A stretch of 64,000 bases of DNA from Anabaena lutea FACHB-196 (GTDB lineage Bacteria; Cyanobacteriota; Cyanobacteriia; Cyanobacteriales; Nostocaceae), in contig NZ_JACJST010000014.1 of assembly GCF_014698305.1 (NCBI RefSeq), forward strand, positions 1 to 64,000. The letters are read 5' to 3'. The notes below the pieces were generated by a model. That model made no database searches. It saw nothing but the letters and a program-made list of their open reading frames with translations, and was not told the DNA's origin. Numbering within the stretch: the first letter of the stretch is position 1; each line of letters starts with the position of its first letter. Position numbers and translations under genes: made by a program. Below are positions 16,844 to 53,323 of the stretch, one piece after another.

Positions 16844-18574
16844 ATGCTATTTAATTTTTTTAAAAGTCCTAAATCTCCTATAGCTAAAATGCAACTAACT
16901 CCTAGTTGGTGTGTAGCTTATGGAAAATTAGATAATTTAACCAAAGATGTAATTTGGCAAGATCAGCAATTTGCGGTTATTTCTGCACCAGCACAATTTG
17001 CACTGAGTCATACAAAAAGATTTGTAGTAGTTGGGGATATTTGGCTAAGTAACCGAGGGGAACTCCTGCAAAAATTGGGAATTGATATTAATGATAATTG
17101 CAGTAATCAAGAACTGGTTGCACAACTGTGGGAAAAATACAATTTTGAATGCTTAACTCTATTAGTGGGAATGTTTGGGTTAGTAATTTGGGATTGTGAG
17201 CAACAGGTATTATGGTTAGTGCGCGATCGCATTGGTAGCCGCACTTTATATTATACTACCACTGGTGAAACTCGTTGGATAGCCCCCAAATTAAGAACTC
17301 TTACACCTTATCGTACCAATAATTTAGATTTAGTCGCATTGCGAGATTATCTTTGTTGTGCTTTTGTGCCTGGAGAAAGAACACTTTGGCAAGATGTGCG
17401 GGAAATTCGTCCCGGTACATTCATGAAAATGCCAACAGCACAAGTTGATCATTATTGGCAACTACAAGAACAGATTATAGACACAAATCAACCGTTAGAA
17501 TGGTATGGTGAAAAACTGCGTTCTTTACTTGAGCAAGTTGTCAAAGAATATTTACCTGAAAATCAACCCGTTGGTGTTTTCTTATCTGGTGGTTTAGATT
17601 CTAGCAGCATCACCGCATTAGCAGCAAAATTTCATCATCCACCAGTTCACACTTATTCAATTCATTTTGGCACAGAAACCGCGAACGAATTAGAATTTTC
17701 TAATTTAGTTGCTCAACATTGCCAAACTCAACATCGCATATTAGAAATCACATTTCGAGATATGTGGGAACGTCTCCCCGAAACAATGGCTTATTTAGAT
17801 GATCCTATTGGTGATCCTTTAACAGTACCAAATTTGCTAATAGGAAAAATGGCAAGGGAGAACGTACAGTTTACACTAAATGGAGAAGGTGGAGATCCTT
17901 GCTTTGGTGGCCCCAAAAATCAACCGATGTTAATAAATAGTTTATATGGTTCTGTTAATAATCAAGATTCATTACAAGCATTTTTAATTTCTTTCCAAAA
18001 ATGCGCTTTAGACTTACCGCAACTTTTAAAACCAGAAATTTGGCAAACTTTAAAAAACGAACCATCTGTATTTGCTGCTGATTTAAATTCCCACGCTAAT
18101 TATTTAAATAGATTAATGGCATTGAATATTAAATTTAAAGGTGCAGATCAGATATTAACAAAAGTGAACAACTTAACACAAGCAGCAAATTTGCAGGGTT
18201 TATCACCGCTTTTTGATCAGCGTGTAGTTGAATTAAGTATGCAAATTCCCCCCGAATATAAACTTTCAGGAGTAGAAGAAAAAGCAGTTTTAAAAAATGC
18301 AGTTAGTGATATTTTACCCTGGGCAATTATTCATCGTCCTAAAAGTGGAATGATGGTTCCCGTACAATTGGGATTTAGGAAATATTGGCAACGGGAAGCG
18401 AGGAGATTGTTGTTAAATAGAAAAAATGAAATTTCACCTTATATTAATCAGGATATTTTGCATGATTGGTTAAATTTTAAAGGTGATATTTGGGGAAGAT
18501 ATGGTGTTAAACTATGGTTATTAGTAAGTTTAGAAATTTGGTTACAGGTAAATAAAACCGTATTAAAGAAGTAG
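16844..18574 (+). CDS. Asparagine-synthase-like PP-loop enzyme without the glutaminase cysteine (copy A)
   Basis: The 576-residue protein has an N-terminal Ntn-glutaminase-like domain (VLWLVRDRIGSRTLYY) and a C-terminal AMP-forming PP-loop domain (VGVFLSGGLDSSS, residues 248-255; NGEGGDPCFGG; RPKSGMMVP). Asparagine synthetase B needs Cys2 as nucleophile; here the start is MLFNFFK, so glutamine hydrolysis should be lost, as in beta-lactam synthetases, lasso cyclases and some exopolysaccharide-linked amidotransferases. The substrate is unknown. ATG 16844 is chosen because longer frames cross the sodB terminator; ATG 16889 is also possible. The stop is four bases before the ATPase gene, so they form an operon. 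Confidence 0.8.
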   Translation: MLFNFFKSPKSPIAKMQLTPSWCVAYGKLDNLTKDVIWQDQQFAVISAPAQFALSHTKRFVVVGDIWLSNRGELLQKLGIDINDNCSNQELVAQLWEKYNFECLTLLVGMFGLVIWDCEQQVLWLVRDRIGSRTLYYTTTGETRWIAPKLRTLTPYRTNNLDLVALRDYLCCAFVPGERTLWQDVREIRPGTFMKMPTAQVDHYWQLQEQIIDTNQPLEWYGEKLRSLLEQVVKEYLPENQPVGVFLSGGLDSSSITALAAKFHHPPVHTYSIHFGTETANELEFSNLVAQHCQTQHRILEITFRDMWERLPETMAYLDDPIGDPLTVPNLLIGKMARENVQFTLNGEGGDPCFGGPKNQPMLINSLYGSVNNQDSLQAFLISFQKCALDLPQLLKPEIWQTLKNEPSVFAADLNSHANYLNRLMALNIKFKGADQILTKVNNLTQAANLQGLSPLFDQRVVELSMQIPPEYKLSGVEEKAVLKNAVSDILPWAIIHRPKSGMMVPVQLGFRKYWQREARRLLLNRKNEISPYINQDILHDWLNFKGDIWGRYGVKLWLLVSLEIWLQVNKTVLKK

Positions 18575-18578
18575 TCAA

Positions 18579-19814
18579 ATGCTAAAAGAACTTCATTTAA
18601 AATCAGTGGGACCATCTTCTCAATTTGATGTTGAATTTGCTGATAGAGTCAACATTTTTACTGGAGATAATGGATTAGGTAAAAGCTTTTTACTGGATGT
18701 TGCTTGGTGGGTACTTACCGGAAATTGGGTAGAACAACCCGCTTATCCGCAAAGAAATACAGAACAACCTCCAGAAATTATCTCCCAAATTAATACTCAA
18801 GATGGTGCAAAAGACTATCAAAGTAGCTTTAATTTTTCTGAACAAAAATGGTTAAATGAGCATTTACCTCCTGAACTAAACGAGGTAGTTATTTTTGTTC
18901 GCGTTGATGGAAGTTTTTCTGTTTTTGACCCTCTTCGTAACCGTGATAATGCCTATATTTTTACCACAGATACACTTTGGAACGGATTGAAACTAAAAAG
19001 AAAATCTCTTTGTAACGGTCTAATTCAAGATTGGGTAACATGGCAAAATCAACCCCAAAAAACGCCATTTAAACTTTTATCTAATGTCATTAAACAACTT
19101 GCACCCCATCCTGATGAATGGATAGAAATAGGAGAACCAACGCGAGTATCTGTAGATGATGTCCGTGACATTCCCACAATTAATCTTCCTTACGGTAATA
19201 TTCCTATTACTCAAGCATCAGCGGGAATGAAGCGTATTTTGGGACTTGCTTATTTATTGGTATGGACTTGGTACGAACACGAAAAAGCTTCAGAACTCCG
19301 AAAGCAAGAACCGATGAATCAAATAGTTTTATTAGTTGATGAAATTGAGTCTCACTTGCATCCTCGCTGGCAAAGAGTCATCTTACCATCTATTTTATCA
19401 GTGGTAAATCAGTTAAAACCAAATATCACGATACAAGCTTTAGTTACTACTCATTCTCCCCTTGTTTTGGCTTCATTAGAACCACTTTTTGATGAAGAGA
19501 AAGACAAATTATTTTTATTTGAAATGCAAGGAAAAGACGTTGAACTAAATGAAGTTTTCTGGACTAAACAAGGAGATACTGTAGGATGGTTAACTTCAGA
19601 AATATTTGGACTAAAACAAGCGCGTTCTCAAGAATCAGAAACCGCAATTGAAGCAGCAGAAGCGTGGATGCGTAATGATGAGATGAATGCTTTTCCCGAA
19701 CATTTGAGAACACAGTCACAAATTCATCAGGAATTGCAAAGACTTTTACCAGGACATGATCCATTTTGGCCACGTTGGATAGTCACAGCAGAAAGAATCA
19801 ATTCAGGTTTATAA
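18579..19814 (+). CDS. ABC/OLD-like P-loop ATPase, Septu PtuA-like
   Basis: A soluble 411-residue ATPase. Walker A is GDNGLGKS (residues 29-36), an ABC-type signature SAGMKR lies near 214-219, Walker B LLVDEIESHLHP near 251-262, and the switch His in TTHSP at 292. This order matches SMC/OLD-like ATPases such as PtuA of Septu defence and retron-associated ATPases. The ATPase is followed after 14 bp by an HNH-like gene and preceded by the PP-loop gene at four bp. Inference: an ATP-driven sensor that controls the nuclease partner. Confidence 0.8.
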   Translation: MLKELHLKSVGPSSQFDVEFADRVNIFTGDNGLGKSFLLDVAWWVLTGNWVEQPAYPQRNTEQPPEIISQINTQDGAKDYQSSFNFSEQKWLNEHLPPELNEVVIFVRVDGSFSVFDPLRNRDNAYIFTTDTLWNGLKLKRKSLCNGLIQDWVTWQNQPQKTPFKLLSNVIKQLAPHPDEWIEIGEPTRVSVDDVRDIPTINLPYGNIPITQASAGMKRILGLAYLLVWTWYEHEKASELRKQEPMNQIVLLVDEIESHLHPRWQRVILPSILSVVNQLKPNITIQALVTTHSPLVLASLEPLFDEEKDKLFLFEMQGKDVELNEVFWTKQGDTVGWLTSEIFGLKQARSQESETAIEAAEAWMRNDEMNAFPEHLRTQSQIHQELQRLLPGHDPFWPRWIVTAERINSGL

Positions 19815-19828
19815 GAATCATATTCAAG

Positions 19829-20413
19829 ATGTTAAAGTTTAATCCACCACCAGAACCGCAAGATTTTGATGTAAAAGCACGACAACCAGGTAATAATTGG
19901 TTAGCAAAAAGTATAGATCCCAAAAAAAGACCAAGAGATTATTGGTCAAATTTCAAAAGTGATTTAGCTGATGGTTTTAGTAATCTTTGTGCTTATAGTG
20001 CCATGTATGAACCTGTAGGCACTGTAGACCATTTCCTGTGTTGTGAAAATCATCGTCATTTAGCTTATGAATGGAGTAATTATCGTTTTGCTTCTGGTTG
20101 GATTAATAGTAGTAAAGGTACTCTTGATGACCAATTACTTGATCCATTTGAAGTTGAAGATGATTGGTTTGAAATTTTGTTACCTTCCTTGCAATTAGTA
20201 ATAACTAATACAGTCCCACCAGAAGAACGTCAAAAGGCTGAATTTACTTTACAAAGATTGCATCTACGGGATGATGAACGAGTCCTTCGTCAGCGTCAAG
20301 AATGGTATAAGTTGTATATTGATGATGATCTTACCCTAACAGGATTAGAAAAGAAAGCTCCTCTCATTGCTCGTGCAATTAAAAAACAACAAGCACATTC
20401 TCAGTTAGAATAA
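19829..20413 (+). CDS. HNH-endonuclease-like protein, Septu PtuB-like partner
   Basis: The 194 residues carry the degenerate HNH pattern of nucleases found beside PtuA-like ATPases: CAYSAMY, then GTVDHF with His68, LAYEWSNYRFAS with Asn84, and WINSSKG. The zinc-binding CxxC pairs usual in such proteins are incomplete (the second position reads SGWINSSK), so activity needs testing. The conserved block DPFEVEDDWFEILLPSLQLVIT is distinctive. ATG 19829 is preferred over an upstream TTG inside the ATPase gene. A 23-bp gap separates it from the convergent operon. Confidence 0.65.
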   Translation: MLKFNPPPEPQDFDVKARQPGNNWLAKSIDPKKRPRDYWSNFKSDLADGFSNLCAYSAMYEPVGTVDHFLCCENHRHLAYEWSNYRFASGWINSSKGTLDDQLLDPFEVEDDWFEILLPSLQLVITNTVPPEERQKAEFTLQRLHLRDDERVLRQRQEWYKLYIDDDLTLTGLEKKAPLIARAIKKQQAHSQLE

Positions 20414-20436: not shown

Positions 20437-21741
20437 TTATCCAAAACTTTCCACCATATAAATATCATTCCCAGAATCACCAATTAAAATCATACTACTA
20501 TCATTACCTTCCAAATTAGAACTGCCAGAAATACCACTTTGTAGAACTTTAATTAATCTTTGAGGTGTGAAAGATTCCAATTCCACAAAATTACCAGCAT
20601 CTAACCAAACTAATTCTTCAGCAGATAAACTCTGCCGAATTTCTTGACTTAATTTTTTAGCTTCTGTTGTTATGGAGGGTGTATTTTGAATAAACATTCC
20701 TCGCTTAGTTGCGATAATTTGACGCGGTAATAATCCCACATCAATAATGGTCACATTACTGTCAAGAAACCAACTATCACTACTGCGAAGACGATGGACT
20801 AAACTAATACCTCTGGGAGTACAATCATGTAGTGCATACACCTTTAAATCAGGGTTACGACGCAGCATTTCCATTGTTGTATTGAAAATACTTTGGGGAT
20901 AACCAGTAATACTGAGAATTGCACAGTTATTTTCAAAGTGGAAATTATTAGCAATTAATAATTGAGCAATAGTAGAATTATCACAAACCACTAATCTATC
21001 AAAACTGTAAGCAGTGACATCAGGATTGATTGTAGCTGGTGCAATTTCTTGTCGTGGTGAAGGGAGGATTTTGGGAAGTGAACCATTAATTTGTTGCCAT
21101 CTTTCTAACCAACCTTCTAAATATGATTGAGAAATTAAAAATTCCTGTGCTAATGAATCAACTTTTCCTAATTGTCGAGTTCCTAAGAATATTGAAGACA
21201 TTCCCAGAATTACGACAATAATAAATAGAATGTAGGAATTAAATACAAACAGACTTGCCAATATTCCGACAACTAAAATTAAGACTCCTAGTCTTTGTAA
21301 AGATTTAGCACTTGCCTTACGACTAGCATTATTTAGTTTAGCAGAATTCGTGTTATTAAACAAATAAATAACTACGCAAATTTGATAAATTATATTTGCA
21401 GTTAAAAAAGAATTAGAACTCATTATTCCGCTTAAAATACCACCAACAAAGCCTGTTACCCAAACATTAAAGAAAATATAAAACCCAGCAAATCCTAATG
21501 ATTTAAATGATTTATTTCTGAGACGACTATCTAAAAAGTAAAGCAGTTGTTTGGGTGTAAAAAATAAAGTGTTATTAGCAGAAATATCAGCTAATATTTT
21601 CGCAAACATAGGATCTGTAATTTTCACATTTCCCATATTTGTAGGTTCAAAAACAAAAGGATGATTACATTTTTGACATCTTCCTTGATTTGCTGTTCTG
21701 TCTTTTAAATTATTATCAGTTCCGCAGTTAATACATTTCAT
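20437..21741 (-). CDS. Zinc-ribbon membrane protein with a Toprim-like C-terminal domain
   Basis: A 434-residue protein of unknown function. Residues 1-30 form a zinc ribbon (CINC...CQKC). About four hydrophobic segments follow between residues 80 and 190 (FAGFYIFFNVWVTGFVGGILSG, FLTANIIYQICVVIYLF, LGVLILVVGILASLFVF, YILFIIVVILGMSSIFLG). The C-terminal part (DRLVVCDNSTIAQLLIANN, CAILSITGYPQ, VYALHDCTPRGISLVHRL) follows the strand order of Spo11/topoisomerase VI Toprim domains, where the last motif is usually DADPYG; here the acids are reduced. Probably a membrane-tethered regulator or degenerate nucleic-acid enzyme. It is last in a four-gene operon, 14 bp after the decarboxylase-like gene. 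Confidence 0.55.
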   Translation of the reverse strand: MKCINCGTDNNLKDRTANQGRCQKCNHPFVFEPTNMGNVKITDPMFAKILADISANNTLFFTPKQLLYFLDSRLRNKSFKSLGFAGFYIFFNVWVTGFVGGILSGIMSSNSFLTANIIYQICVVIYLFNNTNSAKLNNASRKASAKSLQRLGVLILVVGILASLFVFNSYILFIIVVILGMSSIFLGTRQLGKVDSLAQEFLISQSYLEGWLERWQQINGSLPKILPSPRQEIAPATINPDVTAYSFDRLVVCDNSTIAQLLIANNFHFENNCAILSITGYPQSIFNTTMEMLRRNPDLKVYALHDCTPRGISLVHRLRSSDSWFLDSNVTIIDVGLLPRQIIATKRGMFIQNTPSITTEAKKLSQEIRQSLSAEELVWLDAGNFVELESFTPQRLIKVLQSGISGSSNLEGNDSSMILIGDSGNDIYMVESFG

Positions 21742-21755
21742 AGTTTTTAGTTAAA

Positions 21756-22967
21756 TTAGAGAATTTGATTGTTAAGTAAAACGCTGTAATCTTCCCGTTT
21801 TCTAATTAAACGATGAGTATTATTTTCTAGTAACACTTCCGCAGGTTTGGGACGATGTAAAAAATGTGAAGACATCGCATAACCATAAGCACCTACATCT
21901 AAAATTGCGATAATATCGCCAATTTCTAAAGCTGGAAGTTGACAATTTTTACCTAAATAATCTCGTGAGTAAGTTGTATTTCCACAAATATCTGTTATGT
22001 ACTTTTCAGAAATTGGATTTTTCCAAGTTACGATTTCTCGATAACCACCATGTACAGAAAGAACAGAAATATTAGCTACAGTAGAATCAACACCAACAAC
22101 TTGTTTTTTACCTTGCCATTTTACAGAAACAACCTTAGCTAACATGATTGCACAACCTGCTATAGCCGAACGTCCTGGCTCAATTACCAAATTAATTTTG
22201 CTGTCTAAATGGCTAATTCTGATGCTTAACTCATTACCAAATATTTTCCAGTCAAAAGCTATATTATTATGATTGTATGGATAACCAAAACCACCACCAA
22301 AATCTAAATATTGCCAATCTGGTAAATTTCTTGCAGTTGCTAAAACCGAATCAATAACATCAGTAAAAGCAGAAGTTGCATTAGTTCCCGTACCTCGATA
22401 AAAATGTAACCCTGTAAGTTTTAATCCCGCAGCATTAGTAATAAAAATAGCCTCATCAAAATCTGCCAAAGTCACACCAATTCGACTATCTTCCGAAACA
22501 TTCAACCTTAAACCAAGACGTAACTCCTCTTCCTCTCTGTGTCTCTGCGACTCTGCGTGAGATAAAAAAACCTCACAACACAAACGCAACTGAGAAATAC
22601 TATCCAAATTGAGAGTAGTCACACCCCAATCTAAAACCTGAGACATTTCTTCCCGACTTAAATTACTGCCACTATAAACAATATCACCAGGAAGAAAACC
22701 TGCATTTAAACCCAAATAAATATCCCCTGGAGTATTAGCATGAAGTCCCCAACCAGCAGCTTGAAAAATTTTTAATAAGGCAATATTGCCATTTGTCACA
22801 CTAGCGAAATGAAACTTAGTGCGGGGATAACTGAAAGATTTAGTAATATGTGCAATAGTTTGGCGTAAAATATCCCCATCATAAACATACAAAGGAGAAC
22901 CGTAAATTTGCAATAACTCCTGTGCAAGTTTGAGTTCTAAATTTAGTATTGCTTGTACTTTTTCCAT
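21756..22967 (-). CDS. Fold-III decarboxylase/racemase-like protein, PLP lysine apparently missing
   Basis: A 403-residue relative of diaminopimelate and ornithine decarboxylases. The phosphate-binding GGGFGYPY (224-231), EPGRS (263-267) and C-terminal GAYGYAMSSHF (359-369) are intact. The first barrel strand, normally YAVKAN with the PLP-binding Lys, reads FHFASVTNGN (52-61), leaving Val at the Lys position; the usual GLHxHxGS is GLHFYRGTG. So it may be a pseudoenzyme or use another chemistry. Residues about 135-148 (LSHAESQRHREEEE) come from an inserted dispersed repeat. ATG 22967 overlaps the end of the PP-loop gene by 25 bp. Homologues with PLP next to AsnB-like genes occur in exosortase loci. 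Confidence 0.75.
   Translation of the reverse strand: MEKVQAILNLELKLAQELLQIYGSPLYVYDGDILRQTIAHITKSFSYPRTKFHFASVTNGNIALLKIFQAAGWGLHANTPGDIYLGLNAGFLPGDIVYSGSNLSREEMSQVLDWGVTTLNLDSISQLRLCCEVFLSHAESQRHREEEELRLGLRLNVSEDSRIGVTLADFDEAIFITNAAGLKLTGLHFYRGTGTNATSAFTDVIDSVLATARNLPDWQYLDFGGGFGYPYNHNNIAFDWKIFGNELSIRISHLDSKINLVIEPGRSAIAGCAIMLAKVVSVKWQGKKQVVGVDSTVANISVLSVHGGYREIVTWKNPISEKYITDICGNTTYSRDYLGKNCQLPALEIGDIIAILDVGAYGYAMSSHFLHRPKPAEVLLENNTHRLIRKREDYSVLLNNQIL
22528..22566. repeat. CTCTGCG-type dispersed repeat inside the decarboxylase-like gene
   Basis: Contains CTCTGTGTCTCTGCGACTCT and then CTGCGTGAGA, the same family as copies at 24557-24591, 43686-43762, 44596-44618, 51064-51094 and 53031-53065. 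It is read in frame without a stop. Confidence 0.8.
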
Positions 22968-24640
22968 AACCAACTAGGTAAGATAAATGGATGATTCCAA
23001 GACTTTGTCACTAATTTTGCACCGAAAACGTGATAACGCCAAAGTTGCCACATTATCAGTAACCACAGACTTTCACCCACGCGTCTTCCTTGAATTGCTC
23101 CTCCCAATTCGCCTGTAACAATTTGTAAGGCAATATCAGGAAAAAAGCATTTCTCAGAACTCAGTATACCTGGATTTAACCAATTACCGATATCATGCCA
23201 ATAATCATTTAAACACCAAGAGGTTAAGGGAACACCCATACCGCGCTTTTGTCGCCAAACAATTTCCGCTGGTAGCCAATTTTCTACTGCACGTTTGAGG
23301 ATATATTTCTCACAAGCACCGTGTAGACAGAGTTCTCCAGATAGCTGAAAAGTCCATGCTGCTAAAAGTAAATCACAAAAAGGCGATCGCACACCCAACC
23401 CATGAGCAAAACCCAACGCAGTCGCACGGGGATGGATATTCTGCGCTCCTTTTAACATCAAACTAGCACGACGGAGACGATGTAACAACGAAGGACAAAA
23501 ACTAGCATCAAGAGCATCTAACAGCCATTCCTGAGCATTTAAACCCCGTATCTGTGCATATATTTCCGGTTGATAAACCCTTGCTTCATAACCCCAAAGA
23601 CGGTGAAAAGTGCGGAGATATTGCTGAATAAAAGTTTCTTCTCCGTTGGGATTTTCAGCTTGATAAATACCAGCAGCAATTAAAGGTTTATTAGTCCAAC
23701 CTGCAAATAATTGATCACCACCTTCACCATTAAAAATCACCTGAGTTTCTTGAGAAGCAACTTGATTAAGGAGATATAAAGGAACAGTTACCCCGTCACC
23801 AAAAGGTAAATCTAAAGCTTTGACAGTAGGAATCAGCGCATTTTTAACTTTATTTGGACTTGCATCAACTTTCACCAGAGGAATATTGAGAAATTCCGCC
23901 ACTTTTTCCGCATAGGGATATTCAGGAATTCCCACATTACCAAAATCCAAAGTGTAAGCGCGAACCTTCACACCAGCTTCTACCAACAAAGCCGCAACAA
24001 TTGAAGAATCTAAACCACCAGAAAGAAAGACTCCTACAGGTTCATCTTTCAAATCAGCAATTTGTTTTTGAATAGACTTTTTTAGTAAAACTTGTAATTG
24101 AGAAACTGCAATATTTTCATCTTTAATTTGTTCTGGAGATTCACCCCATTGATAAATTCCGCGAAATTGAGAAGAACCAATATCTTCCCAAACAATCTCA
24201 GTTCCCGCAGGTACAGAAAATACTTTATGAACAGAAGTCAGAGGATTAGGAACATAAGAAAAACAACTATAACCATATAAACCAGGAATACTAACTTCCG
24301 GTTTTTCAAGAACTTCTAAAAGTAATTGTAATTGAGAAGCAAACCAAATTACCCCTCCTTGCTGACTCCAAAATAAAGAAACCCTTCCAAAAACTTCCCT
24401 ACCCAAAATCAACTTATTTGATTCTAATCTCACCCAAACATCAGAACAAGCAGAAAATCCACCCGCAGAAATAGCCGCAATCCTATCTTCAGGTAAAGAT
24501 GGTACAGACTCACAACCAACAAAAACAACATCCCAAACAAACTTTTCCCCCTCACCTCCTCTCTTTGCGCCTCTGCGCCTCTGCGTGAGAAACTCTTGTT
24601 TATCCTTACCCCAATAACCAACAAAATGACAAGGAAACAT
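22943..24640 (-). CDS. Asparagine-synthase-like PP-loop enzyme without the glutaminase cysteine (copy B)
   Basis: The 565 residues show the same plan as the gene at 16844: a degenerate Ntn domain starting MFPCHFVGYWG instead of MCG, then PVGVFLSGGLDSS (PP-loop 207-213), NGEGGDQLFAG near 304-314 and KRGMGVPL near the C-terminus. The shared NGEGGD motif indicates the two are paralogues. Loss of Cys2 suggests an ammonia- or amine-dependent amide synthetase; the acceptor is unknown. Residues about 17-28 (EFLTQRRRGAKR) come from a dispersed repeat read in frame. The start lies two bases after the upstream stop and its end overlaps the decarboxylase-like gene. Confidence 0.82.
   Translation of the reverse strand: MFPCHFVGYWGKDKQEFLTQRRRGAKRGGEGEKFVWDVVFVGCESVPSLPEDRIAAISAGGFSACSDVWVRLESNKLILGREVFGRVSLFWSQQGGVIWFASQLQLLLEVLEKPEVSIPGLYGYSCFSYVPNPLTSVHKVFSVPAGTEIVWEDIGSSQFRGIYQWGESPEQIKDENIAVSQLQVLLKKSIQKQIADLKDEPVGVFLSGGLDSSIVAALLVEAGVKVRAYTLDFGNVGIPEYPYAEKVAEFLNIPLVKVDASPNKVKNALIPTVKALDLPFGDGVTVPLYLLNQVASQETQVIFNGEGGDQLFAGWTNKPLIAAGIYQAENPNGEETFIQQYLRTFHRLWGYEARVYQPEIYAQIRGLNAQEWLLDALDASFCPSLLHRLRRASLMLKGAQNIHPRATALGFAHGLGVRSPFCDLLLAAWTFQLSGELCLHGACEKYILKRAVENWLPAEIVWRQKRGMGVPLTSWCLNDYWHDIGNWLNPGILSSEKCFFPDIALQIVTGELGGAIQGRRVGESLWLLIMWQLWRYHVFGAKLVTKSWNHPFILPSWLWKKYKQY
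24557..24591. repeat. CTCTGCG-type dispersed repeat inside PP-loop gene B
   Basis: Contains CTCTTTGCGCCTCTGCGCCT and then CTGCGTGAGA. It encodes the charged segment LTQRRRGAKR near the protein's N-terminus. Confidence 0.85.
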
Positions 24641-24642
24641 AA

Positions 24643-25263
24643 CTATTGAACCACAAAAGTTTCATCGCTAATTTTCCGACCATCGAGAAACATTTCGACT
24701 TTCCAATTTCCCGCCGTTGCAGTAGAATTAATGGTATAACGACAAAAAGTATCCCAAACAGAAGTTTTAACTTCGCGGGTTTGATAATTATTTTGCTTAA
24801 CAACTTGACCACTGGGGTCAATCCAATTACAAGAAAGATTAAGTTTTTTACCTATGGGTGCATCTTTCAAAGTGACACGATAAAAAAGTTCTGAATTAGA
24901 TTGACGGGAGACATTTTTCAAATTTCCATTATTTGATTCTAAAGTAATGCGGTCTTGCTGTGCCGAAACATTAGCCAGTAACGAAGCTTGTTGTTGATTA
25001 AAAAATATTGTTAATGCTATCCCTAAAATAACAGCCCCAGCCACACCAAAACCAATCAATTTATTTCGGCGTTGTTGCACTTCCAAAGCTTGACGACGAC
25101 CTAACTGAATTAAGGCTTCATCTAATAACTCAGGTGCTAAATTCAATTCTTTTAAAATGTCCTTAACCTGCTGTTGATCAAGTTCTGCTTCTTGACGTAA
25201 TTGCAGTCCTTGGACTTCAGCGATTATTTGGTTCAATTGCTCTTGAGTCAGTCGCTGGTTCAT
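24643..25263 (-). CDS. Membrane-anchored protein with C-terminal Ig-like region, unknown function
   Basis: A 206-residue protein starting at ATG 25263 (MNQRLTQEQLNQIIAEVQ). The first 70 residues are helical and charged, then one transmembrane helix (LIGFGVAGAVILGIALTIFF, about 75-95) and a beta-rich region ending in STATAGNWKVEMFLDGRKISDETFVVQ, as in small beta-sandwich domains. It is first in the four-gene operon and is followed after two bases by PP-loop gene B. No enzymatic motif. A role in presenting or sensing at the membrane is inference. Confidence 0.65.
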   Translation of the reverse strand: MNQRLTQEQLNQIIAEVQGLQLRQEAELDQQQVKDILKELNLAPELLDEALIQLGRRQALEVQQRRNKLIGFGVAGAVILGIALTIFFNQQQASLLANVSAQQDRITLESNNGNLKNVSRQSNSELFYRVTLKDAPIGKKLNLSCNWIDPSGQVVKQNNYQTREVKTSVWDTFCRYTINSTATAGNWKVEMFLDGRKISDETFVVQ

Positions 25264-30840: not shown

Positions 30841-31416
30841 ATGAAACTATCTCAGATTCTGCCCTTAGTTGTTTGTAGTGCTGCTGCTGGTATCCTGGCT
30901 AGTATGTCTCCAGCCAAAGCGTTGGATTTCAATTTTACGCTTAGTAGCACCGTTAATACTAATATTGCAACAGGTACAATATATGGATTAACAGACAATG
31001 CAACTAGCTCTGCATCACAAATCACAATAAACAGTCTTACCTGGAGTTCTTCTGTCTTTACCCCCCTTCCTTTTTCCATAAACATTGGTGGAGCCTCACA
31101 GAATAGTTTTACTGTTAGTGGGGGAACATTGACTGGCGCTGCATTTCAATTGAGTAACGGGAACTACGACGTATATTTAAATGGTCAAGGGCAGACGGTT
31201 AACGTCGTAAATGATTTTAATAATGGAGCTCTAAACTTCGATGGATTTTCAGGCGTTACATACACCCCAGTCAGTGCTGCTGTCCCCTTTGATATCCCCG
31301 GAGGTGCAACCATCCCCACAGTCGGCTCTTTACTCGCTTTGGGTGCGATGAGGAAAGCTAAAAAACGTCTAGCAGCAAAAACCCTCGTTGTTAAACCTGT
31401 GGAAACAGTAGTTTAA
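30841..31416 (+). CDS. Exported protein with PFE-type C-terminal sorting signal
   Basis: A 191-residue protein with signal peptide MKLSQILPLVVCSAAAGILAS and a Thr/Ser/Asn-rich beta-type body. The C-terminus has VPFDIPGGATIPTVGSLLAL followed by a basic tail (RKAKKRLAAK), which is the cyanobacterial PFE-CTERM arrangement: motif, short hydrophobic helix, positive cluster. Such proteins are processed by a cyanoexosortase and displayed at the surface. No exosortase gene is in the window. The body resembles no enzyme. Confidence 0.75.
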   Translation: MKLSQILPLVVCSAAAGILASMSPAKALDFNFTLSSTVNTNIATGTIYGLTDNATSSASQITINSLTWSSSVFTPLPFSINIGGASQNSFTVSGGTLTGAAFQLSNGNYDVYLNGQGQTVNVVNDFNNGALNFDGFSGVTYTPVSAAVPFDIPGGATIPTVGSLLALGAMRKAKKRLAAKTLVVKPVETVV

Positions 31417-51023: not shown

Positions 51024-51063
51024 ATTATAGCAATTTTCGGGTAAATGAAACATTTTTTTTATT

Positions 51064-51094
51064 TCACGCAGAGACGCAGAGGCACAGAGAGAGA
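51064..51094. repeat. CTCTGCG-type dispersed repeat (reverse orientation)
   Basis: Starts TCACGCAGAGACGCAGAGGC; reverse complement of the family unit. Confidence 0.8.
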
Positions 51095-52989: not shown

Positions 52990-53323
52990 CAGGTTTTTAT
53001 CTTGGCTATAGTTTGTAAATATTCAATCTTTCTTCTCTTTGCGTCTCTGCGTCTCTGCGTGAGAAAAAATCTTCCAAAACCCTATATCAATCCTTTGGGA
53101 TTTTAACTAAATTTACCAAAAAGTCAGAACAATGTCAATAATCAATCGCCCAAAAAACCAAACTTCGTTAAATAATTGAGAATAGTATCAATAATATTGA
53201 GAATAGGGGGTAGTTTATTGCGAAAATCTTTTTTTCAGGAATTTCGGACAACCAGAGATAAGTTAATTTAATAGAACGCAGATAAAAAATTAGGGTGGGT
53301 TTGTTTTTCCCACCCTTGATAGA
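52990..53323. other. 334-bp gap; CTCTGCG repeat and typA 3' side
   Basis: Dispersed repeat at 53031-53065 (CTCTTTGCGTCTCTGCGTCT). Near 53290-53315 GGGTGGGTTTG and CCCACCC form a short stem just after the typA stop and may end its transcript on the minus strand. Confidence 0.5.

Follow-up and report, generated by a model that had tools for sequence, protein, structure and literature searches.

A conserved five-gene cluster of Cyanobacteria links two AsnB-like proteins lacking the glutaminase cysteine to a membrane Toprim protein with a conserved C-terminal tail

The window analyzed here is the whole 64,000-nucleotide stretch at positions 1 to 64,000 of contig NZ_JACJST010000014.1 (contig C6) in the 6.06-Mb genome of Anabaena lutea FACHB-196 (assembly GCF_014698305.1). 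Within it, four minus-strand genes, which we name G7-G6-G5-G4, converge on a plus-strand gene, G1, and these five genes almost certainly constitute one linked unit; the two plus-strand genes that follow G1 are named PtuA and PtuB. G1 and G6 encode asparagine synthetase B (AsnB)-like PP-loop proteins, G5 a decarboxylase-like protein, G4 a membrane protein with a conserved C-terminal tail, and G7 a second membrane protein. The original prediction had taken all seven genes as a unit that builds or conjugates a small amide at the membrane. The data now point to the C-terminal tail of G4, in place of a small molecule, as the likelier substrate, and we tentatively propose that G1 and G6 join this tail to an amine.

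To define the unit, 195 genomes of the window's order were searched with G6, G4, and G5, with score thresholds set at the gap in E-values. G1 was recovered by the G6 search as the nearest paralogue and confirmed by tblastn on the fetched stretches, and one genome (G042) was entered in the G1 list by hand. G1, G4, G5, and G6 are present in 43, 47, 42, and 41 genomes, respectively; all four are found together in 37 genomes, at least three in 43, and any of them in 49. The two AsnB-like genes co-occur in 38 genomes, with G1 without G6 in 5, G6 without G1 in 3, and neither in 149. Seven genomes hold two or three of the four genes, and five hold a single gene: G1 in G028, G4 in G040, G043, and G132 (two of which carry a fragment or broken gene), and G6 in G150, which is 66% complete. 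Among the fetched, non-duplicate loci (L numbers below), G6 and G5 lie on the same strand in all 54 that have both, G5 and G4 lie on the same strand no more than 600 bp apart in 64 of 65, and 44 of the 45 with G1 and G4 have these two in convergent orientation. This constancy of strand and spacing argues that the arrangement is not due to chance. Of 61 loci, 52 have G7 no more than 10 kb away from G6, and in genomes G090 and G033 the core is retained though split along one long contig.

The core recurs in many genera. In Gloeothece verrucosa PCC 7822 the entire core resides on plasmid NC_014534.1, where its genes are annotated as “hypothetical”, “asparagine synthetase B family”, “decarboxylase”, “hypothetical”, and “asparagine synthase-related”. 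The closest named relative among the matches of a contig scan is Anabaena catenula FACHB-362 (L007), with 86–100% identity over the nine genes compared. No gene family beyond the core was seen beside the cluster in most loci, with the families not all annotated. The cluster appears to be undescribed, as no account of it was found in the open-licence PubMed Central literature. At L141 (genome G512) most of the cluster genes are fragmented, a PtuA remnant included, so the system is also undergoing loss.

In the window, the gaps between the minus-strand genes are 2 bp (G7/G6), −25 bp (G6/G5), and 14 bp (G5/G4), and the end of G4 lies 23 bp from that of PtuB, the last plus-strand gene; the four genes and these four spacings, as originally predicted, are reproduced from the coordinates. 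Promoter-like matches are rarer than in shuffled sequences (21 versus a mean of 31.3).

G1 (16844–18574, plus strand, with an ATG at 16844) matches PF00733 with 230 bits, and G6 (22943–24640, minus strand), which has a degenerate N-terminal domain, does so with 185 bits. Both contain SGGLDSS and NGEGGD motifs and neither begins with MC, which confirms the predicted PP-loop, NGEGGD motif, and lack of Cys2. In a maximum-likelihood tree of 48 proteins, comprising 22 G1 rows, 15 G6 rows, and 11 other AsnB-family proteins (canonical AsnB, NAGGN and XrtA amidotransferases, and a lasso cyclase), G1 and G6 each form one clade (supports of 100/99 and 100/100, respectively). The two are sister clades (99/92) that stand apart from all 11 comparison proteins, three of which, the lasso cyclase and two other rows, are long branches of unsure placement. 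With their co-occurrence across the order, this sister relationship upholds the predicted link between the two PP-loop proteins: their operons are not mostly independent, and the proteins are sister groups.

The SGGxDSS, NGE.GD, and R.K motifs are kept in all 37 G1 and G6 rows. At what we take to be the position of the glutaminase cysteine in the alignment, an MC start is present in 10 of the 11 comparison proteins and in none of the G1 or G6 copies, whose start codons were picked by script. The common “DE...GY” motif is replaced by DP.F[GA]GPKNxPML in G1 and by DQLF[AG]GW in G6. These features suggest that both proteins have kept the adenylation chemistry, lost the glutaminase, and acquired a changed substrate pocket. 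Neither passes the model for glutamine-hydrolysing asparagine synthase (TIGR01536, cut-off 267.1; 229.6 bits for G1 and 165.3 for G6), for XrtA/PEP-CTERM amidotransferase (TIGR03108, cut-off 816.9; 230.2 and 148.5 bits), or, by score only, for lasso peptide cyclase (NF033535, cut-off 525; 172.2 and 41.8 bits). A role in ordinary asparagine or lysine metabolism was rejected, as the genome has its own diaminopimelate decarboxylase, LysA (contig C62, 495.6 bits), and a separate, third full AsnB at C6:123249–124364, which begins MCG.

G5 (21756–22967, minus strand) begins with ATG, with a TTG also present at 22973. It retains the fold and the GGG, EPGR, and GAYG motifs of diaminopimelate decarboxylase, whereas its score against the LysA model TIGR01048 (237.6 bits) falls below the cut-off of 297.9. 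Valine occupies the column that we take to be that of the lysine binding pyridoxal 5′-phosphate (PLP), and threonine the column presumed to hold the catalytic cysteine, in all 69 distinct copies, two of which come from outside the window's class; the LysA of the same genome keeps Lys and Cys at these two columns. G5, originally predicted to be a decarboxylase homologue, is thus a putative pseudoenzyme, unlikely to act as a normal decarboxylase. Strong conservation of the new motifs SVTNGN, RGTGTN, and CGNTTYSRDYLG (in most copies) shows constraint, apparently for another role. Separately, a repeat, TCTGCGNNTCTGCGTGAG, occurs four times in the window (22544–22561, 24572–24589, 51063–51080, and 53046–53063), where shuffles expect none; two of these copies lie in frame within G5 and G6, each adding a variable stretch to the protein.

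G4 (20437–21741, minus strand) matches PF21180 with 26.1 bits (cut-off 24.1). Its predicted structure (predicted local distance difference test score, pLDDT, of 82.2) consists of an N-terminal zinc ribbon, long helices, and a C-terminal Toprim domain of the topoisomerase VI A type. The Toprim domain aligns to topoisomerase VI A (1d3y) with Z = 10.9 and a root mean square deviation of 4.3 over 174 residues. Only G4 residues 227–419 take part in this alignment, the N-terminal half of the model being made up of the zinc ribbon and long helices. A match to the defence nuclease JetD (7til, Z = 7.4) may, taken alone, reflect just a common arrangement. The G4 C-terminal domain shares its fold with topoisomerase VI A, Spo11, and JetD; in G4, however, the domain belongs to a zinc-ribbon membrane protein, and no DNA-cleaving winged-helix part is visible in the model. 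The two hydrophobic stretches of the G4 sequence appear as four long helices in the predicted structure, and G7 (24643–25263, minus strand) has one transmembrane segment followed by an Ig-like C-terminal domain (PF12975, 24.5 bits, cut-off 24; best Foldseek match 3n6y, E = 3e-6), so that the two membrane proteins of the original prediction are both present. A G4 profile gave a single chance-level membrane-protein match among PDB sequences (E = 2.1), and no G4 relatives were found in viral contigs and phages. G4 occurs as a tandem duplicate, in some cases with one broken copy, at L019, L029, L032, L037, L040, L074, L089, and L100.

The last four codons of G4 (20440–20451, minus strand) encode the tail ESFG, which follows a linker whose residues 411–425 have pLDDT values below 50. 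Among 71 distinct intact G4 copies, 67 end in FG after a variable linker, 61 of them in SFG. All five divergent copies from outside the class end in SFG or DFG, three of them belonging to loci in which no core gene other than G4 and G1 was found. At L023, a G4 derivative of 106 residues retains the N-terminal part and the tail. When all 13 sites in the window's genome that encode [DE][ST]FG followed by a stop codon were read, only that of G4 ended a frame of more than 47 residues. Where G4 and G1 occur together, the tail is present in most loci, and it is free at the C-terminus.

Distant forms of the cluster are smaller. Across the phylum, 386 genomes were searched; G5 was found in 34 at E 1e-90 and G4 in 39 at E 1e-8, five of the G4-bearing genomes lying outside the window's class. 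The order of genes is G5-G6-G4-G1, on a single strand, at L085 and G5-G4-G1 at L084, and the loci L135, L136, and L137 yielded nothing of the core except G4 overlapping G1. The families common to all five loci are G4 and the AsnB-like gene only, and the minimum form in distant relatives is the G4+G1 pair.

Outside the phylum, a Streptomyces plasmid (NZ_CP108509.1, L142), an unannotated record for which the gene calls were made in this analysis, carries three G4-like genes, a gene for a 179-residue protein, a G1-type AsnB gene, and then a dehydrogenase-like gene. None of the three G4-like proteins ends in FG; it is the 179-residue protein, encoded directly upstream of the G1-type gene and giving no match to G4 queries, that ends in SDDDFG. 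Spread outside Cyanobacteria rests on this one plasmid because the contig scan reached close relatives only. Taken with the two-gene loci of distant relatives in the same phylum, the plasmid suggests that the system may be old or mobile. The best matches of its dehydrogenase-like gene (L142:12626–14053) are models of aminobutyraldehyde dehydrogenase, whose cut-offs it does not reach; this might hint at polyamines.

The tail occurs alongside G1, is free, and adjoins a member of a carboxylate-adenylating enzyme family, and the simplest reading is that it is the substrate. Also in favour of this reading, the one intact orphan G4, at L087 in genome G043 (which has no G1, G5, or G6), lacks the FG end. 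Beyond the linkage of the tail-bearing protein to the ligase-like protein, which is observed directly in the loci, we infer each step of the following scheme. In the cytoplasm, G1, helped or followed by G6, would adenylate the carboxylate of the glycine that ends the G4 tail, and the activated tail would be passed to an amine not derived from glutamine hydrolysis by the same protein. The G4 C-terminus would thereby become amidated or conjugated at the membrane. The pseudo-decarboxylase barrel of G5 may bind or present the amine, which could be lysine-, diaminopimelate-, or polyamine-like, since its fold family binds basic amino acids; alternatively, it may bind the tail. The complex would be connected to the envelope through G7. 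A more specific version, in which the AsnB-type ligase joins the [S/D]FG tail to an amine of a protein, lipid, or polyamine presented by the pseudo-decarboxylase, would amount to a bacterial system of protein tagging or C-terminal conjugation unrelated to ubiquitin and Pup, and we consider it rather unlikely. It would resemble ubiquitin-like and Pup conjugation in principle, having a C-terminus after a flexible linker beside an ATP-dependent ligase; it differs in that no beta-grasp fold and no PafA-type ligase are present here and conjugation is only putative. If the tail is the substrate, the cluster would provide a further bacterial way to activate and join a protein C-terminus, by asparagine-synthetase chemistry, and a function would be gained for genes whose sole annotations are “asparagine synthase”, “decarboxylase”, and “hypothetical”.

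A precedent is found in asparagine synthetase (AS)-like enzymes that act on the C-termini of ribosomal peptides. According to PMC13060819, PesC produces a nitrile, and amidation is the activity cited there for TsrC and ScdTA. These systems share with the present cluster an AsnB-type PP-loop protein encoded next to a ribosomally made product whose C-terminus is defined and, in principle, carboxylate adenylation. They differ from it in that the tail is here part of a large membrane protein, as opposed to a short precursor, and in that the present system, known from sequence alone, has no glutaminase cysteine, two synthetase paralogues, and a G5 protein without PLP.

Several observations weigh against the tail as a substrate. 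PesC uses glutamine or ammonia (PMC13060819), whereas the glutaminase cysteine is missing from both G1 and G6. Of the 71 intact G4 copies, four have no FG end: those at L010 and L072, the latter with an early stop and ...ESFG further downstream, one of the two tandem copies at L100, and the orphan at L087. In genome G028, which has an intact orphan G1, no recognisable tail protein was found at any of the 19 [DE][ST]FG-stop sites, one of which ends an open frame of 117 residues and the rest frames of at most 53, in a scan that covered [DE][ST]FG and not endings such as DFG. The Streptomyces tail is a single case on an unannotated plasmid, and its 179-residue protein has no other match in the plasmid collection. 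Finally, the data would suit a tail used for docking almost as well as one used as a substrate.

Docking is part of the alternative that survives best, in which the AsnB-like pair makes a small signalling or protective amide, G5 binds its substrate or product, G4 is a membrane sensor or effector, and the FG tail docks G4 to G1. Short, fixed C-termini often serve docking, and, judging by the family models, AsnB-family enzymes mostly use small molecules. G5 likewise keeps much of the basic-amino-acid decarboxylase fold, with new invariant residues. However, only G4 and G1 were found at L135–L137, and the five outgroup loci share no other biosynthetic gene; G1 is therefore tied to the tail-bearing protein and not to a pathway. 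On balance, we regard a small-amide product as possible and somewhat doubtful. Even if the tail merely docks, what has emerged is a conserved system that combines two glutaminase-less AsnB paralogues with a PLP-less decarboxylase and a membrane Toprim protein, and no description of it was found in the open-licence literature.

The genes between G1 and G4 raise a different alternative, that all seven form one anti-phage system in which the AsnB-like part senses infection or makes a signal and PtuA and PtuB act as the effector. PtuA (18579–19814, plus strand), the Septu ATPase, starts 4 bp after G1 and matches the PADLOC model PDLC00307 with 614.8 bits; PtuB (19829–20413, plus strand), its HNH partner according to the model name, matches PDLC00348 with 260.9 bits. 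These two adjacent proteins are thus the Septu pair, and they do not pass the NCBIfam retron Ec78 models (PtuA 61.9, cut-off 500; PtuB 17.4, cut-off 150). In addition to these strong matches, the kind of Toprim domain in G4 is shared with JetD, and kinase-like neighbours of some clusters give matches to a defence kinase model that stay under its cut-off. Against a single system, PtuA or a remnant of it is present in just 7 of the 45 other non-duplicate clusters with G1 and G4, and the AsnB-like and G5 proteins match no defence model except for a weak QueC match. At L008, which has no PtuA or PtuB, about 15 bp separate the end of the G1 match from that of the G4 match, and the PtuA/PtuB pair is truncated or broken at L011, L013, L024, L030, and L141. 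Because of this distribution, the L008 arrangement, and the broken copies, PtuA and PtuB are placed outside the core as a probable later arrival, and the original seven-gene unit is reduced to five. They would represent a separate defence pair inserted between G1 and G4 in one lineage, and a joint anti-phage function is very unlikely.

It is also quite improbable that the cluster is a pathway resembling those of ribosomally synthesized and post-translationally modified peptides (RiPPs), in which the G4 tail would be modified, cleaved, and released as a small peptide. The tail does combine a variable linker with a fixed end, resides on a small separate protein in Streptomyces, and lies beside relatives of the AS-like enzymes that work in RiPP pathways (PMC13060819). 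However, the remainder of G4 is strongly conserved too, unlike a leader peptide, and, with the families not all annotated, most loci show no additional common gene family next to the cluster.

A role in decorating surface polysaccharide or in an exosortase-type pathway is the least probable alternative. G1 and G6 match TIGR03108 in part, and G5 matches TIGR03099, as members of the same AsnB-like and ornithine/diaminopimelate decarboxylase-like superfamilies; however, the scores against TIGR03108, TIGR03104, and TIGR03099 are 230, 206, and 103 bits, far under the cut-offs of 817, 570, and 478. The XrtA amidotransferase of L144 falls outside the G1+G6 group in the tree. The statement in the original prediction that no exosortase is present holds for the window's contig but fails for the genome, which has two exosortase genes (contigs C11 and C39). 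Exosortase, found in 165 of the 195 genomes, is far commoner than the cluster. Conversely, G6 is present without any exosortase match in at least G054, G058, G128, and G154. The exosortase or polysaccharide assignment was rejected on these scores, the tree, and the exosortase distribution, which give no support to the predicted likeness to exosortase loci.

Two minor observations concern neighbouring genes. Ser/Thr-kinase-like proteins with a four-cysteine prefix adjoin the cluster near G1 at L066, L070, L071, and L077 and near G7 at L037–L039; they are excluded from the core because no close relatives were found in the remaining loci. In the window, 30841–31416 encodes a secreted-looking protein whose end resembles, by eye, a sorting signal, with a short motif, a hydrophobic stretch, and a basic end.

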